A stretch of DNA of 32,228 nt from Actinomycetes bacterium. GTDB lineage: Bacteria > Actinomycetota > Acidimicrobiia > Acidimicrobiales > JAJZXF01. The stretch is from positions 1-32,228 of the forward strand of contig JAJZXF010000023.1 in NCBI GenBank assembly GCA_021802485.1, in the 5' to 3' direction. Below the pieces are notes generated by a model that was given only the letters and a program-made list of their open reading frames with translations, was not told the origin of the DNA and did no database searches. A program made the translations under genes and the position numbers. Positions 1,152 through 9,591 of the stretch are shown one piece after another (within the stretch, counting starts at the first letter, position 1; every line of letters begins with the position of its first letter).

Positions 1152-2064
1152 CTGGCATCCTTTCCGAGCCCAGCGGTAGCAGCGAGTGTCTTGCTTGTTG
1201 AGCGTCACGGGATCCACTGCAGGGCTGTTAGAGGTGACGGGGAGCTAGCCGAAAGCGCCGACATCGTCCCGGCCACGAGGAGTGTTCCGCATCGCGTGTA
1301 CGCGTTTCCCCCCGGGGCGATACAGCGAGCAAACTGCGTCCCGGCGTATGGCTGTACGAGGCGTGTTCAGCGGGGTGGGGCGATGTGGCTGAAGAGCCCC
1401 GCCGATGGCCACCTGAAAAGCTTCAATCTCGAATGCCATACGACGGTCTTGTCTGGCAACCCACGTGCACACGCTGGCCCCCTGGCACTCCGTTGCGCCG
1501 GCTCACCCAGCGCCTCCCGCTCCCGCCTCGAAGGAGCTTGTCTGTGCAATATGGATGAGCAACGGGTCAGGGCAGCGGTCCGTGTTCGAGCATCGCGACG
1601 CCCGAACCAGAACAGATCGTCTTGTCGGCTCCAACCACGTGCTCGAAGGGCTCTGTGCACTTTCGAACAGCGTGTCGCGAGACGCGCTCGATGCAGCCGT
1701 AATGTGTCGTAGCCGCAGGTGAGGGCTCTGTAAGTTTGCTGGAGTCAGGGCTCGACAAGTACCTTACGGGCGTTTTCCACAGGAGTCCCAATGTCCCCTT
1801 GCGGCGACGTCGCGAGGCTCGGAAACCCGCAGGGCAGAGCGCTTAGCGCTTCTTATTTCCGGTTCAGGTTCGGGTAGAACCCACGAGACCGCAGCTTTGT
1901 GTCGTAGCCGCAGCCCACAGGGTGTGGAGCACTGTCTGAACGAGAGGTTTGCAAGCTCTTGTGCAGGTTTCTCGAAGGGTTGGACACGCGGAGCCTCGTG
2001 AAACCGAAGCTTTGTGTCGTAGCCGCAGGTGAGAGATGTATTTGGCACATAGGGCGAAAACAGC
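1152..2064. other. 0.9 kb without a supported gene; three motif copies
   Basis: Several overlapping frames of similar length on both strands cross this stretch. None has a ribosome binding site or protein family, so I call no gene. What stands out is a motif repeated three times in the same orientation (separate entry). There is also a palindromic AGCGCT-T-AGCGCT at 1838-1850 followed by a T-rich stretch, which could act as a weak terminator. The region may be decayed mobile-element DNA. Confidence 0.45.
1703..2033 (+). repeat. Three copies of TGTGTCGTAGCCGCAG motif
   Basis: The 16-mer TGTGTCGTAGCCGCAG occurs at 1703-1718, 1898-1913 and 2013-2028. Copies 1 and 3 continue identically for GTGAG (21 bp in all). 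Copies 2 and 3 share AGCTT just upstream. Start-to-start spacings are 195 and 115 bp, so this is neither a CRISPR array nor regular iterons. The last copy ends about 30 bp before the WhiB-like start, so an operator role is possible but unproven. Confidence 0.7.
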
Positions 2065-2661
2065 GTGGATACGTCATGCATGAACACCTCATCTGTGAAC
2101 TCATGCTGGAAGGACCAAGCGCTCTGTGCTGGGACCGACACCAACGACTGGGTGAGCTCTGCTCCGGGCAATACCCAAAGGGTCCGGGCTCGAAAGACAA
2201 TATGTGCTACTTGTCCGGTAACAGAGCGCTGTCTCGATGAGGCACTAGCAAAGCCGGAGTGGTCCCTTGGTATCTGGGCTGGCACCAGTGTGAACGAACG
2301 AGCGGGGATAGCCCGGACGATGCGGGCGGTCATCGCCTCTGGCACAGACATCCGAGACGATGTCATCTGGGACCGGTTCAATGCCGATGTGGGACTCACC
2401 CGTGACGTCGAGACAGCGGTCGAGGCACCAGAGCGGCTTGCAGGACTCCTTGGTTCAAGGCACAAGCTCTCCGTCGTTGCAGCTGCAGCTCTCCTCGCGC
2501 GCCACGACGAGGCAATTGCAACACGAATCGCCGCGCGATGTGACCAGCCGGAGTGGCTGCTGCGCGCAGCAGCCCGCATCGGCGCATCGTCGCATCGAGC
2601 TGCTAGACGTCGCGCTAACGCTTCGCGGATGCGAAAGGTGCGTGGCCGCGTAGCAGCGTAA
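2065..2661 (+). CDS. WhiB-like Fe-S transcriptional regulator
   Basis: A 198-aa protein. The N-terminal half carries the Wbl signature: W15-x-x-x-A-L-C21-A-G-x-D, then C47-x2-C50-x5-C56 within CATCPVTERC, then G69-I-W-A-G-T. The usual turn is G-[IV]-W-G-G, so one glycine is replaced by alanine. The four cysteines would bind a [4Fe-4S] cluster that senses oxygen, NO or redox state. Residues about 85-198 are an unusual extension rich in alanine and arginine, ending in a basic tail. Known Wbl proteins are mostly 80-140 aa and act with the primary sigma factor. The start could be GTG 2065 or ATG 2080; neither has a strong ribosome site. Wbl genes are common on actinobacterial phages and plasmids, which suits this accessory setting. 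Confidence 0.8.
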   Translation: MDTSCMNTSSVNSCWKDQALCAGTDTNDWVSSAPGNTQRVRARKTICATCPVTERCLDEALAKPEWSLGIWAGTSVNERAGIARTMRAVIASGTDIRDDVIWDRFNADVGLTRDVETAVEAPERLAGLLGSRHKLSVVAAAALLARHDEAIATRIAARCDQPEWLLRAAARIGASSHRAARRRANASRMRKVRGRVAA

Positions 2662-2896: not shown

Positions 2897-4816
2897 TCAC
2901 CCGATGCCAGCGACTATGCGCGCGTTCAGAGGCTTTCCACCCATGGAGCCGTTGAAGCTCGCGTTGCCGAAGGTGAATACCCCACCGTCAGAAGCGATCA
3001 TCCAGTAGCCTCCCATGTTGACACCAGGAGTGATGGCCACTACCGGTGCGTTCAAGGGCTTTCCACCCATGGAGCCCAAGAACGGGGCATCGAACGCGAA
3101 TACCCCTCCATCTTGAGCAACCATCCAGTAGCCTCCTGTCGTCGAATCCGCAGCGATGCCTACGATCGGCTTGTTGAGGGACTTGCCACCCATGGAGCCA
3201 TAGAAGCCCGCATTGCCGAAGCTGAAGATGCCACCGTCTTGGGCGACCATCCAGTAGCCTTTGCCGTCTGGGGTGGACGCGATGCCAACGATTGGTGCGT
3301 TGAGCCGCTTGCCACCCATGGAGCCATAGAACTTCGCATCACCGAAGGCGAAGATGCCTCCGTCTGCTGCGACCTCCCAGTAGCCAGCGCCATCCGGAGT
3401 AGCAGCGATGCCAACGATCGGTGCGTTGAGCGGCTTGCCACCCATCGAGCCATAGAAGTGCGCGTCACCGAAGCTGAAGATGCCACCGTCTCTAGCTACT
3501 TCCCAGTAGCCAGCGCCATCGGGAGTAGCAGCGACGCCCACAATCGGTGCGTTCAACGGCTTGCCACCCATCGAGCCATAGAAGCGAGCGTTGCCGAAGC
3601 TGAAGATGCCTCCGTCAGCAGCGGCAAGTGAATAGCCTTGCGGAGATTGGAGAATGATCCCGCCGTTCCCGTCATACGCTGCGGTGCCGCCGACTGCGAC
3701 GCAGTCCGAGGCGGAAAAGCACGACACGCCGATAAGGGACTCTGCACTGCTTGGCACGTTCTCACTTGTCCAGTTAGCACCTCCGTTCGTGGTAACAAGG
3801 GCGGCACCCGCGGTACCCCCATCCACGGTGACACAGTCTGATACCGATACGCACGATACGCTTTCAAGCGCGAGCACGCTCTTTGGCACGTTCTCGCTCG
3901 TCCAGGTCACACCCCCGTTCGTGGTTGCAAGGATGACACCGCCACTGCCGCTCGAGCCGACCGCGATGCAGTCCAACGGGGTGGAACAGGAGACTCCGCC
4001 GACCCATTTCACGCCACCTGGCACGTTCTCGCTCGTCCAAGTAGCACCGCCGTTGGTCGTGGCAACGACATCACCATCACTGCTGGTGGCAGAAGGAGTG
4101 TAGCCGACAGCGACGCAGTCCAAGGGTGTCGCACACGAGACGGTGGAGAGATAGGAGAGGTTGCTCGGCACACTCTGGTTCGTCCAGATCACACCACCGT
4201 CAGTGGTCGCGATGATGACACCGCCACTGTCGCTCGAGCCGACCGCGATGCAGTCCAAGGGGGTGGAACAGGAGACGCCTGCGAGTGAGCCGCTGTTACC
4301 GACGGAGACGCTACTCGGCACGTTCTGGCTAGTCCAGGTGGCGCCCCCGTTCGTGGTCGTGTAGATCAAACCAGAATAGTCGGAATACCCCAAGGGGGCG
4401 GTGTGCACAGAGTAGCCAACGATAACGCAGTCTTTCGTATTCGCACAGGATACACCGGTGTAGTACACCGAGAGCGGGAATGATCCAAACTGGTCTCGGC
4501 TACCCTGGGTTATCCAGTGTGAGCCGCCGTCCGTGGTTATAGCGTCGTAGTAGGTGTTGTTGTTGTATCCGACAGCGATGCACTCCAGGGCGCTCGGACA
4601 CGAGATGTCGTATAACGTGCCCAATGTTGGAAACGAGCCAGGCTGCACGGTCCATGTCGCTCGGGTACTCGCTGATGCGGGCGTTATAGCTATCACGACA
4701 CCAGCGAGTGTTGTCAGCAGCACCAGAGCGGCCAGTGCTAGACGGGTTACAGACCTCCTTGCTCCGTCGCTACAATGAGCCAAGCGCCATGACCGTGGAC
4801 GCCTCAGTTTTCGTTG
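2897..4816 (-). CDS. Secreted double-repeat protein: Cys-pair propeller plus GYW repeats
   Basis: A 639-aa exported protein if started at ATG 4816, which has AAAGGG 8 nt upstream. A longer frame begins at ATG 4879 in an ATGA overlap with the upstream gene, but it would add 21 residues ahead of an already long signal peptide. The signal peptide is basic, then LALAALVLLTTLAG, with likely cleavage after TPASA. Next come seven blades, each with a cysteine pair (SC-x5-C, usually followed by xAVG) and, in the first six, an Asp-box-like T-[TD/TN]-GG-x-x-W motif, typical of sortilin/YCF48/BNR-type beta-propellers. Then follow six 42-residue repeats, GYW-x-V-A-x-DGGIF-x-FG through to FYGSMGGK. No catalytic residues are recognisable. 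It probably acts as a surface binding or structural protein. It shares its architecture with its upstream neighbour. Confidence 0.85.
   Translation of the reverse strand, partial: QRKLRRPRSWRLAHCSDGARRSVTRLALAALVLLTTLAGVVIAITPASASTRATWTVQPGSFPTLGTLYDISCPSALECIAVGYNNNTYYDAITTDGGSHWITQGSRDQFGSFPLSVYYTGVSCANTKDCVIVGYSVHTAPLGYSDYSGLIYTTTNGGATWTSQNVPSSVSVGNSGSLAGVSCSTPLDCIAVGSSDSGGVIIATTDGGVIWTNQSVPSNLSYLSTVSCATPLDCVAVGYTPSATSSDGDVVATTNGGATWTSENVPGGVKWVGGVSCSTPLDCIAVGSSGSGGVILATTNGGVTWTSENVPKSVLALESVSCVSVSDCVTVDGGTAGAALVTTNGGANWTSENVPSSAESLIGVSCFSASDCVAVGGTAAYDGNGGIILQSPQGYSLAAADGGIFSFGNARFYGSMGGKPLNAPIVGVAATPDGAGYWEVARDGGIFSFGDAHFYGSMGGKPLNAPIVGIAATPDGAGYWEVAADGGIFAFGDAKFYGSMGGKRLNAPIVGIASTPDGKGYWMVAQDGGIFSFGNAGFYGSMGGKSLNKPIVGIAADSTTGGYWMVAQDGGVFAFDAPFLGSMGGKPLNAPVVAITPGVNMGGYWMIASDGGVFTFGNASFNGSMGGKPLNARIVAGIG
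2900..3637 (-). repeat. Six tandem 126-bp units encoding GYW repeats
   Basis: The 3' end of the gene consists of six units of about 126 bp (42 codons each; the first, fifth and last are slightly short). On the plus strand each contains TTGCCACCCAT or a near variant, the complement of the G-G-K core. Units two and three are the most alike. The final unit is degenerate at its end (RIVAGIG). Confidence 0.85.
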
Positions 4817-4875
4817 CATCACCGCTGCCCTTTGTGAGCATTCAGGCACGAAATGTCCGGTATATGCGGTTGGTC

Positions 4876-7800
4876 TCATGGCGACACCGGCACTTCACTA
4901 CTAGCTGCCATCCCGACGACCGGAGCGTTCAGGTGCTTTCCGCCCATCGATCCGTAGAAGTGTGCGTCGAGGTAAGCGAAGATGCCTCCGTCTGAGGCGA
5001 CCTCCCAGTATCCAAAGCCATCCGAGGTGGATGCGATGCCTACGATCGGAGCGTTCAGTGGCTTTGCACCCATAGAGCCGTAGAAGCCAGCGTCACCGAA
5101 GGCGAAGATGCCTCCGTCTGAGGCGACCTCCCAGTATCCTCCGCCATCAGGGGTGGAGGTGATGCCTACAACCGGTTTGTTGAGCGGCTTACCGCCCATA
5201 GAGCCGTAGAAGCCAGCGTCACCGAAGGCGAAGATGCCTCCGTCTGAGGCGACCTCCCAGTATCCTCCGCCATCCGGGGTGGAGGTGATGCCTACAACCG
5301 GTTTGTTGAGCGGCTTTCCGCCCATCGATCCGTAGAAGCCGGCGTCGCCGAAGGCGAAGATGCCTCCGTCTGCTGCTACCTCCCAGTAGCCCTTGCCATC
5401 AGGCGTTGCAGCGATGCCAACGACTGGCGCCTTCAAGGTCTTTCCGCCCATCGAACCGTAGAAGCCGGCGTCGCCGAAGGCGAAGATGCCTCCGTCTGCT
5501 GCGACCTCCCAATATCCCTTGCCATCAGGCGTTGCAGCGATGCCAACGACTGGCGCCTTTAAGGTCTTTCCGCCCATCGAGCCGTAGAACTGCGCGCCGC
5601 CGAATGGGAAGATGCCGCCGTCTGCTGCGACCTCCCAGTAGCCCGTGGAACACTTATCCGGAGCGACCACGCAGTTCATCGGCAACATCGCAAACTGAAC
5701 ATGGCCAGTGGCGCCTCCACTATTGGGCGCGTTGTACGTACCACGTTGGAAGTAGCTGAAGACGAGGTTGGTGTTGCCCGTAGGGTCGAGTTCAGGGTGG
5801 AGCAGATAGTCATAGCACGAAGTGGCAAACACCGTTGGCGAGCACCCTGGGATCACTGCGCTCGTGGTGAGCGTGAACGGACCCCACGGATCCGAGGCGA
5901 CAGCGAACTGCACCTCTCCCGAATAAGGACCGCCAACGGGCTGGTAGACCATGATGTACTCGGTGCCGTTCTGGGTGGGGACTTTCGACACCGAGAAGGT
6001 CCCACCACCGATCACCGCCTGTTGTGCTGTTGTGGCAGAACTAAATGGAGGGATTGGGCAGGTGGCCAGGATGGGAGTTGCCTCCGCGCCATTGGTGGTC
6101 CACGATGCAGAGCTGGCAATGGGAGTGGACGGGCAAATCGACGTGGAACCGGTAGGGGGCGGTGTGTCGTAGTACTTGTAGTTCGCTGCGCAAGCCCATA
6201 CCGGAAAGCTCGTACCGCAAACTGACGTGTTGACGGTGGTTGTTCCCGTGGTTGTGCCCTTTGGGCTGAGTGACAGGTTGATCCTCGCCAGATAGACGTA
6301 ATGGGACCAGTTGCCGACTGGCGTGTATATGTATAGGTGGTTCTCGTTGGGGCCCAGGACTGCACCGGATGCGAAGCCATCCTGCGGGGTCGCCGGGCTG
6401 CTGGTGTCACACTTCGCGATGCCAGGACCACTACAGTTGAGCTCTTGAGGACTGGATGAGGGGAAGGGGAACAGGTTGTCATATATCGATGACGGCTGGT
6501 TCGTTGTAGACCCTGTGACGTTGACCTCGCCAACCCCGACAGAGGGACTCCACGTCGTCTCCAAGTTCATGTCGAAGCTCCAGCCGAGAGGAGCGGCCGT
6601 CCCGTTGCTCAGGAACACGATGTCGGAGTACGTGGCGTCTGTGCCGAGCTTGATCTGGGGGATGCACCAGTGCTGGTAGTAGTCAAGGACCTTGTTCGAC
6701 TGCGTAAGGCTTGCGCTATAGCCGCTAAGGAATGCTCCCACAGGCCGCGTCATGAGGCCAGCGGTCCAGCGCATGCACTGGTAATGGGTCGTCGTCAACG
6801 GCTGGGATCCCGGCACGATCACGAAGCCCGCGGAGCTGAGATTCGCACAGTCGGCCGGCCGATTGCTCCCGGCCAGGTCATACGCTGTCAGCTCGTTCGC
6901 AGAGATCATGCAGTAGTCAGTCAGGGGTATGGGCGTTTCACCCTTTGTTTTTGCGTCCGTGTCACGGAGAGGGCTCGCGTCGTTGTCACTGTCATTATCC
7001 GGGTCGTATGATGGCGCTACCCCCATCTCCAGGAGATTCTGAGCGCTGATAGTGACACTTGGCACCGTTAGCTTGTTCGCGGTCGCCCAAGCGGAGAGTG
7101 TGCTGGTGCCCTTTGGCCCTTCGCTCGGCAGGAAAGGACACGGTTGGCTGGGCGCAATCGGGCTTGCAAGACCACTCGAAGTTTCCCCAACGGTCGAATA
7201 TGGGCAGGGGTACGGCCACGAAGGCTTAGACAAGGTGCCCGTATTCACGTCCTCAGTGAGGAGCGGAAGCTGCGGGGACACCGAAGGTCCAGGGAGCGGG
7301 TCCTGCACCGCAGCGGTGCCGCTCGGCGTGAAGTGGTATACATTTTGCTTGGTGCCGGAAGGTGGGGACGGGGACGTGATCAGTCCGAAGTCGTGTGTGA
7401 TGGTGTCACAGAAGACCCATAGGTCCGCACGGGTCGTGGTCGTCGTGGTCGTTGGGATATTGACCCGCGAGCTTTGGCCACAGTCGCGGTCGACGTTGCG
7501 GGCATTGTAGTACTGCGCGGGCAATAGGAGTTCCGATGTGTAGGAGAACCCGTTGGTCGGGTTGCCGATGAGGGTCGCCTGCACTGGTGGCGCTCCGGTG
7601 CCATAGCTTGCCATTGGCACCGCGAGCGGGGTCACCTGGTATACCGCTGCACCAGCAAGTGAGAACCCGTTCGCGTTTAGCGCTGTGACGCTCACCTGGT
7701 ATGTGGTTGCGTTGATGGCATCTGGGACCTGGTACTGAGCCCCGAGCGATACCGAGGTGCTGAGCGTCGTGCACAGCGCTCCTGTGGTTCCGCAGCTCTC

Positions 7801-9591
7801 AGCGCCGGCGATCGCAGCCTGGAGCCCGTGAGATGATCCGATAAGCCCGCCTGCCTTGCAGGTCGTAGTCGTTGGCGCACAGCTCACGCTGTCGAAACCA
7901 AGTACGGAGTTCGCCTGTGTGGCTACGTTCTCAGGCTGCCAAATCGCCCCGTTGTCAGAGGTCCCTTCGAGCACGGGTGCCACCACCGAGCTTGAACCGA
8001 TAGAAGAGCCTGCGACGTAGCAGGTGCTCGCAGTAGCACACGAGACGCTATAGAGGAATGCATGTGCGTATGTTCCAAGGCCTGCGATCGGGTTCTCCTG
8101 TGCCCAGGTGACACCAGCGTTGCTCGTCTGCCATGCGGTCGAGGTCTGAGCACCGAGGAAGCTCGTGCCGATAGCTGTGCACGACACAGTGCTCGCACAC
8201 GATATTCCGCTCGGGATCTCCAGTGCGCCAGGGCCCTCAGCAGGCCCCATAGCGTTAGCGTTCCAGGTAGCGCCTGCATTCGTGGTGGTGACGCTCATCG
8301 GCGCAAGCCCAAGTGAAGTGAGTGACACATCTGCCTTGACTCCTACGAATGTACAGGTGCTCACTGACGCGCACGAGATGGCGTTGCCTGTGATGAGCGG
8401 GACGAGCAGGCTCACGATCCCCGCTGGCGGAGCACCTTTGGTGCTCTGCCATGTCGCGCCAGCGTCAGTGGACTCCACGACCTCCGATGAGGCTATGCCG
8501 ACAAGTCCTACAGCGAAGCAGGTGCTCGAAGATGCTACACACGAGATGCCACCGAGCGATTCGAGGCTCGATGGCACGGACGCTGCCTTCCAGGTCGCGC
8601 CAGCGTCGGATGTGTAGAAGATCTCCGGCTTTACGGACAGGCTGAGCTTTGCTGGGAACCCACCTGCAACGCACGAGGTCGCGCTTGTACACGACACGCT
8701 CGTCAGGATCATCCCTGGAGCAGATGGGAACGGCACCTCGTTCCAGGTAGCGCCTGCGTTGTTCGTCGCTACGACATATGGCACATAGGACAGCAACGAC
8801 GAGCCTCCGATCGTCGCAGTTGCGCCGACTGCGATGCACGAGGTTGGGCTCGCACAGGATATGTGGAGTATGAAGCTGTCTTGTGCTCCAGTGAGCTCCA
8901 TCTGCCATGCGCCGCTTGGCACCGGCGTAGACTGTGTTCCCGGAGGATAAAGAAGGCAGTATCCCTGAAAGCCGATCAGGCACCCGAGCGAGGCGCCCGA
9001 GATCTCCGGAGTACTTGGAGGGACCGGGTTCGCTGTGATCTTGTAACCGGTGATCGGAGATCCGCCATCGTTCGCTGGAGGATTGAAACTGACGAGGATC
9101 CTCTGGTCCCGTGCGGACGCTACGACGTCTCGTGGTGCGCTCGGCGCCCCGGTAGCACTTGAGACCATAGCTTCACTCGATGGCTGCGACGACACTCCGA
9201 ACCCGAAGCTGTTCAGTGCCGTGACCGTGAAGGTATAGCTCGTAGCGTCAGAGAGCCCCGTCACGACAGTGCTCGTTGCAGAAGGCGATGCGATGAGCCC
9301 GCCACACGATGAGGACGAGGATGAAGATGAGTATGGGCATGCGGGAGATGGCGTGATGAAGTACGCGGTTATCGGCTCAGCACCTTGTGGTGGGGCAATC
9401 CAGGTGACCGTGGCGCTGCCAGCTGATCCGGTTGCCTGGACGTCATATGGCACACCCGGTGCTCCAACGGTAGTGCTATGAGACAAGAGCAAGGAGCGAG
9501 CGCTCCGATGAGGTGTCGAATGGGTATGCTCAGACGCGGCTGCGACCACAGGTACAGCAGTTACGATGACCACAGCTGAAGCTGCAAGCAC
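4876..9591 (-). CDS. Giant secreted multidomain repeat protein, putatively phase variable
   Basis: A 1,571-codon frame from GTG 9591. Order: truncated-looking signal segment (about 1-20); fibronectin type III domain (about 45-145); first half of a second FN3 (about 148-200); seven Cys-pair propeller blades (about 240-595) with NAGATW-like Asp boxes; the rest of FN3 (about 600-657, ATTYQVSVTALN); a 650-residue middle region whose end (HPEL, then LVFSYF) resembles DUF4185/GH43-like five-bladed propellers, a tentative match; and six GYW repeats (1317-1571). The frame is open upstream to TGA at 9669 and encodes RRARLRRSGLG, a proper signal-peptide N-region, but has no start codon there except rare CTG. 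An ATG with ideal GGAGG at 9670 is one frame off because of the (AG)9 tract. It is likely an adhesin-like or polysaccharide-binding surface protein; no function is proven. Confidence 0.85.
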   Translation of the reverse strand: MLAASAVVIVTAVPVVAAASEHTHSTPHRSARSLLLSHSTTVGAPGVPYDVQATGSAGSATVTWIAPPQGAEPITAYFITPSPACPYSSSSSSSSCGGLIASPSATSTVVTGLSDATSYTFTVTALNSFGFGVSSQPSSEAMVSSATGAPSAPRDVVASARDQRILVSFNPPANDGGSPITGYKITANPVPPSTPEISGASLGCLIGFQGYCLLYPPGTQSTPVPSGAWQMELTGAQDSFILHISCASPTSCIAVGATATIGGSSLLSYVPYVVATNNAGATWNEVPFPSAPGMILTSVSCTSATSCVAGGFPAKLSLSVKPEIFYTSDAGATWKAASVPSSLESLGGISCVASSSTCFAVGLVGIASSEVVESTDAGATWQSTKGAPPAGIVSLLVPLITGNAISCASVSTCTFVGVKADVSLTSLGLAPMSVTTTNAGATWNANAMGPAEGPGALEIPSGISCASTVSCTAIGTSFLGAQTSTAWQTSNAGVTWAQENPIAGLGTYAHAFLYSVSCATASTCYVAGSSIGSSSVVAPVLEGTSDNGAIWQPENVATQANSVLGFDSVSCAPTTTTCKAGGLIGSSHGLQAAIAGAESCGTTGALCTTLSTSVSLGAQYQVPDAINATTYQVSVTALNANGFSLAGAAVYQVTPLAVPMASYGTGAPPVQATLIGNPTNGFSYTSELLLPAQYYNARNVDRDCGQSSRVNIPTTTTTTTRADLWVFCDTITHDFGLITSPSPPSGTKQNVYHFTPSGTAAVQDPLPGPSVSPQLPLLTEDVNTGTLSKPSWPYPCPYSTVGETSSGLASPIAPSQPCPFLPSEGPKGTSTLSAWATANKLTVPSVTISAQNLLEMGVAPSYDPDNDSDNDASPLRDTDAKTKGETPIPLTDYCMISANELTAYDLAGSNRPADCANLSSAGFVIVPGSQPLTTTHYQCMRWTAGLMTRPVGAFLSGYSASLTQSNKVLDYYQHWCIPQIKLGTDATYSDIVFLSNGTAAPLGWSFDMNLETTWSPSVGVGEVNVTGSTTNQPSSIYDNLFPFPSSSPQELNCSGPGIAKCDTSSPATPQDGFASGAVLGPNENHLYIYTPVGNWSHYVYLARINLSLSPKGTTTGTTTVNTSVCGTSFPVWACAANYKYYDTPPPTGSTSICPSTPIASSASWTTNGAEATPILATCPIPPFSSATTAQQAVIGGGTFSVSKVPTQNGTEYIMVYQPVGGPYSGEVQFAVASDPWGPFTLTTSAVIPGCSPTVFATSCYDYLLHPELDPTGNTNLVFSYFQRGTYNAPNSGGATGHVQFAMLPMNCVVAPDKCSTGYWEVAADGGIFPFGGAQFYGSMGGKTLKAPVVGIAATPDGKGYWEVAADGGIFAFGDAGFYGSMGGKTLKAPVVGIAATPDGKGYWEVAADGGIFAFGDAGFYGSMGGKPLNKPVVGITSTPDGGGYWEVASDGGIFAFGDAGFYGSMGGKPLNKPVVGITSTPDGGGYWEVASDGGIFAFGDAGFYGSMGAKPLNAPIVGIASTSDGFGYWEVASDGGIFAYLDAHFYGSMGGKHLNAPVVGMAASSEVPVSP
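4879..5643 (-). repeat. Six tandem 126-bp units, near-identical
   Basis: Six 42-codon units. At DNA level units 1-2, 2-3 and 3-4 share long identical stretches (for example around 5090-5130, 5215-5255 and 5465-5490 on the plus strand, GAAGATGCCTCCGTCTG in each). Such near-identity predicts unit gain or loss by recombination, and recombination with the similar array at 2.9-3.6 kb. Confidence 0.88.

Follow-up and report, generated by a model that had tools for sequence, protein, structure and literature searches.

A WhiB-like Gene with a Long C-terminal Extension Preceded by Three Copies of a Locus-specific Motif

The WhiB-like gene and its core

The window, the whole 32,228-nucleotide stretch of DNA analysed here, carries near its left end an open reading frame on the + strand that begins at a GTG at 2065 or an ATG at 2080 and ends at 2661, and three exact copies of TGTGTCGTAGCCGCAG, all on the + strand, lie ahead of it. 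The contig itself opens with a segment (1-196) that recurs with 99% identity on two other contigs, at the start of C151 and some 940 bases short of the end of C49, and in which, by eye, a transposase gene starts on the minus strand. A coiled-coil gene (699-1151) is duplicated together with its flanks on contig C97 (L082 1686-2659), the two coiled-coil proteins measuring 150 and 172 aa and differing in the number of internal repeats. To the right, 2897-9591 holds two large genes for proteins with repeated units, and repeat DNA around 2911-2997 has matches at about 50 genomic sites. A candidate RNA element at 2845-2876 on the minus strand matches an Rfam lncRNA family at 20.5 bits against a cut-off of 60 and was rejected as a chance match.

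The first-pass annotation described the product of the open reading frame as a WhiB-like regulator, and on sequence grounds it is indeed a true Wbl protein. Pfam Whib (PF02467) matches residues 15-80 of the 198 residues of the longer form (E 8.7e-15), which places the WhiB core at 2107-2304 on the + strand, and the cysteines at residues 16, 42, 45 and 51 (counted from ATG 2080) follow the Wbl pattern C-Xn-C-X2-C-X5-C. Matches in the PDB are headed by WhiB (8dy9, E 3.5e-8; 8dy7), followed by WhiB3 and WhiB1; all four cysteines, W10 and W66 are retained. The whole protein has no match among the NCBIfam models and matches PHROG 472 over residues 10-179, a span reaching past the core.

The turn of the protein had also been noted there, and comparison with 33 other Wbl rows shows it to be unusual. 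It reads GIWAG (residues 64-68 from ATG 2080), a form seen in none of the 33, of which 31 have G[VI]WGG; four of the comparison Wbls come from the same genome and 29 from relatives, and two rows (L002 and L004) represent one gene, so that 32 distinct genes were compared. Relative to G[V/I]WGG, the first glycine, the isoleucine, the tryptophan and the last glycine are retained and the fourth position is alanine.

The residues through which WhiB1 contacts sigma region 4, W3, F17, F18 and W60, correspond by distance from the first cysteine to W10, W24, V25 and W66, such that three of the four positions are aromatic and that of F18 is occupied by valine. An intact paralog on contig C38 has phenylalanine and isoleucine at the positions of the two adjacent aromatics. 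Single alanine changes of F31, F32 or W76 in WhiB3 (F17, F18 and W60 of WhiB1) abolish sigma binding, according to the available text of PMC10245118. Since the second adjacent aromatic is lost in both proteins, sigma binding by this Wbl is plausible from its sequence and not assured.

The GC3 of the gene is 0.61 versus 0.70-0.71 in the host genes gltB and ffh, and in codon scoring of the WhiB core the correct frame ranks only second best of six.

The C-terminal extension and its family

Beyond the core, a C-terminal extension of 111 residues occupies 2326-2658 on the + strand. The first-pass annotation contrasted a long extension with other Wbls that end soon after the turn, and the lengths agree: 125 residues follow the GIWAG turn here and 103 aa follow it in the C38 paralog, whereas the tail after the turn has a median of 17 residues in the 33 other Wbls, with 30 or fewer in 32 of them and 101 in one (L026, from genome G030), the values for L002, L003, L038 and L041 being approximate by a few residues. 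The extension closes with a tail that is basic, as had also been proposed, with 11 K/R and no D/E in its last 33 residues. An RGR lies near its end (residues 188-190) and is followed by valine, as judged by eye; the AT-hook RGRP of the WhiB7/WblC subclass is absent from the tail.

Searched alone, the extension matches no Pfam family and no PHROG. LRV repeats (PF01816), suspected by eye, were rejected, with none found by hmmscan of the extension; the genome has four LRV matches at E≤10, none of them at the Wbl gene. The structure prediction suggested in the first-pass annotation yielded an all-helical model of low confidence: single-sequence AlphaFold places helices in the extension with pLDDT mostly 45-60, and mean pLDDT was 50.8 and 52.4 in the two models.

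Five copies of the Wbl/extension family were found in the genome by sequence comparison. The paralog on contig C38 (3272-3793, 173 aa) is intact, with 54% identity overall and 60% in the extension; it keeps the same frame through the extension and ends about 15 residues earlier, without the last part of the tail including the RGR. The other three are truncated, partial or frameshifted: that on contig C23 is truncated soon after the turn, 47 core codons are left on contig C109, and contig C140 has the extension alone, frameshifted and running into the contig end. No more than about 400 bases separate the C23, C109 and C140 copies from a contig end, and contig C38 is only 4.3 kb long. This is the pattern expected when repeats interrupt assembly, and the assembly may conceal additional copies.

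We note that the truncated C23 copy (L044 100-455) is bordered by 20-bp direct repeats (85%), and that its truncation point runs into sequence that by eye resembles GTGTGCGACA-AACGTAGGT. Similar sequence is also found on C97 (L082, about 2834) next to a transposase-like gene, and at the C23 truncation it is possibly an insertion-sequence end.

Codon scoring puts the true frame of the extension best of six here, and second of six for the extension of C38. Over 79 codons of the extension compared with C38, dN is 0.306 and dS 0.595 (dN/dS 0.51), and the 33 replacements compare with a mean of 40.6 under random placement (p 0.01, 2000 trials); over 114 codons, dN is 0.255 and dS 0.821 (dN/dS 0.31). 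By these measures the extension looks coding and is under a constraint that is real but weak. One reading of such a family is that the Wbl gene, left over from a small expansion, is in decay and looks intact only because it has so far taken few mutations. Three truncated or frameshifted copies out of five, the low GC3 and the weakness of the constraint on the extension all fit this picture, which we nonetheless judge unlikely in view of the full open reading frame both here and in C38 and of the dN/dS over the 114 codons.

A strong match to the extension was found nowhere outside its own genome among 395 class, 396 phylum and 397 order genomes, three overlapping samples that include that genome and in which 11 first-look candidates per genome were scored. 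Weak matches to a model of the extension occur in 11 class and six phylum genomes, 18 in all, at E 1.3e-4 to 0.01 and 16-23 bits; on their scores we take them as noise. At 11 of these 18 loci no Wbl was seen in the frame read on the + strand at 1501 only, a strand that may be wrong for some. The sole other genome of the genus found (G001, 89% complete) has no match to the extension.

Against 58 other genomes the whole protein gives at least eight matches that continue past residue 100 (E 3.8e-12 to 2.3e-6); among the matches listed these are two each in G009 and G039 and one each in G012, G023, G029 and G041, and since all eight contain a stop codon they were read as core matches running on by chance. 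Phages (94 records) and plasmids (five records) also give matches, none of which covers 80% of the query, and among the matches listed 20 phage and five plasmid rows cover residues 3-95 only, which is the core. Scans of the genome contigs and a protein scan of viral contigs confirmed no relative. The extension has been found so far in one genome only, and the protein is most likely a lineage-specific Wbl.

The upstream motif and its surroundings

The three direct motif copies reported ahead of the gene by the first-pass annotation are confirmed by exact sequence matches on the + strand starting at 1703, 1898 and 2013. Copy 1 consists of the 16-bp core (1703-1718) within 21 bp, to 1723, that are identical in copy 3; copy 2 spans 1885-1913 (core 1898-1913) and copy 3 spans 2000-2028 (core 2013-2028), the two being 93% identical over 29 bp. 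Copy 3 matches copy 2 in its left flank and copy 1 in its right, and outside the core the flanks of the three diverge fast. The motif is GC-rich and its exact copies are spread over, and packed into, 326 bp. The last of them had been placed about 30 bp from the start of the gene, a distance that must be corrected to 36 bp for GTG 2065 or 51 bp for ATG 2080.

With up to three mismatches, a loose setting at which two of 100 shuffles also contained three sites, the window has three motif sites versus 0.36 expected. No word above 9 bp occurred three times in any of 2000 simulated 401-bp sequences from a first-order Markov model. The first-pass annotation had called for a genome search and named a scattered repeat family as the alternative; in the 2,857,561 bases (2.86 Mb) of the 152 contigs, at two or fewer mismatches, there are three sites, all exact and all at the Wbl gene (the reversed control gives five), and no site of a genome-wide interspersed repeat beyond this locus. 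Such confinement supports a locus-specific element. Sites with one mismatch, one each, are present in four of 58 other genomes, for which the reversed control gives more, and exact matches in three stretches of viral contigs, again one each, are taken as chance.

A dispersed repeat of 87-94 bp, recognised by similarity within the genome, occupies 1774-1867 (+), between motif copies 1 and 2. Eight more full or partial copies of it reach E 1e-16 or better elsewhere in the genome, five of them with 94-99% identity and three weaker or partial; the repeat has sharp ends and contains GC-rich hairpins, and its size suggests a REP- or MITE-like element. With the repeat subtracted, the spacing of motif copies 1 and 2 is about 101 bp, similar to the 115 bp that separate copy 2 from copy 3. 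Further to the left, the interval 550-1595 except for 1335-1463 is duplicated on contig C97 (86% and 83%), where similarity stops 108 bp before copy 1 and gives way to other DNA. A mobile carrier of the Wbl gene was considered and rejected, the C97 duplication ending before both motif and gene.

These features bear on the chief rival to a regulatory role, namely that the motif copies are only what short local duplications or mobile DNA deposited as debris in a repeat-rich, rearranged region. An intervening dispersed repeat, a neighbouring duplication that stops so near copy 1, and a third copy that combines the left flank of the second with the right flank of the first are all features that such a history could leave behind. 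The motif, however, unlike the dispersed repeat, has no other copy in the genome, and its core is 100% identical where the flanks are not; we accordingly rate this explanation as improbable, if the least improbable of the rivals.

Two further observations concern the interval adjoining the gene. Scanning 1600-2900 revealed no sigma-70-type promoter, but the scan has little power, as shuffles average only 0.2. A possible upstream open reading frame of 15 codons (2036-2083, +), noticed by eye, starts 7 bp after copy 3, and its TGA overlaps ATG 2080 as ATGA; it is a possible leader peptide. In the 800 bp upstream of the family members on C38 and C23, the best motif matches have six and five mismatches, respectively, no better than in shuffles.

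A candidate operator and comparison with known Wbl proteins

The analysis itself shows a WhiB core, an extension behind it that is under weak coding constraint, and a motif unique in the genome. The reading that we favor, and to which we give an even chance, is that the gene encodes a functional, lineage-restricted Wbl Fe-S regulator with a basic, mostly helical C-terminal domain of about 110 residues added to its core, and that the three upstream copies are sites for one sequence-specific DNA-binding factor controlling the gene. Three such sites are the best explanation for identical cores with diverged flanks at a single place in the genome, immediately ahead of a regulator gene, and an intact C38 paralog that keeps its frame, the dN/dS of 0.31 and the constraint on the extension all count for a functional regulator. 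On the other side stand the low GC3, the second-best codon scores of the WhiB core and of the C38 extension, the valine at the F18 position, the lack of the motif upstream of the paralog, and the promoter search, weak as it was. In the mechanism envisaged, the four cysteines of the core would ligate a [4Fe-4S] cluster and the core would dock on the principal sigma factor, the basic extension might contact DNA or pair with a second molecule, and the three identical words would form the operator array of the Wbl gene.

Autoregulation or the binding of a partner had been suggested in the first-pass annotation. The locus-specific motif upholds the suggestion in part; with C38 and C23 lacking the motif in their upstream 800 bp, the Wbl protein's own role is only that of a candidate. 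In the direct version, its C-terminal domain would bind the three copies and control its own gene. A basic tail with 11 K/R and no D/E in 33 residues, a motif found at this gene only, and an RGR near the end, by eye similar to the DNA-contacting motifs of WhiB7 and WhiB3 in the available text of PMC10245118, are consistent with this proposal, and WhiB7 provides a precedent (PMC3905903, as far as its available text goes). The intact C38 paralog, with an extension 60% identical, has no motif upstream, which speaks against a shared target, although it also lacks the RGR tail end; moreover, no fold or known DNA-binding domain is recognised in the extension. We therefore consider direct autoregulation doubtful, and its stronger form, in which a Wbl has gained a sequence-specific DNA-binding domain, unrecognised by the libraries searched, and uses it to read a three-copy operator ahead of its gene, to be quite a long shot.

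The way in which Wbl proteins locate their targets on DNA is a matter of continuing debate. The available portion of a 2018 review describes them as seemingly partner-dependent, with the AT-hook of WhiB7 as the only recognised DNA-binding motif (PMC6282962), and a 2023 paper, likewise in its available portion, reports an arginine-rich DNA-binding motif in WhiB3 (PMC10245118). A DNA-binding domain belonging to the Wbl protein itself would, if true, go against the view that site choice comes from a partner protein, and the combination of a large built-in extension with a unique, countable candidate operator offers a simple case for testing how a Wbl chooses its DNA.

Among the papers listed in literature searches, neither titles nor the opening lines of abstracts pointed to a Wbl with an extension of comparable length. 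Phage-borne and order-level Wbls (PHROG 1333, PHROG 472, and L026 in G030) share the same core, and the 101-residue tail of L026 is by eye different in sequence from the extension here. WhiD of Streptomyces venezuelae likewise extends further at its C-terminus than its closest Wbl relative, and this extension causes dimerisation according to the available text of PMC7363131. The S. venezuelae protein exceeds S. coelicolor WhiD by 18 residues and has one additional predicted helix, in contrast to about 110 residues here. WhiB7/WblC (Wbl class V) also joins a WhiB core to a C-terminal basic module, and is described as activating its own promoter in the available text of PMC3905903. In WhiB7 that module is a short RGRP AT-hook, which binds A/T-rich sequence adjacent to the -35, whereas the present protein combines about 110 residues, containing RGR but no RGRP, with a GC-rich motif in three spread copies.
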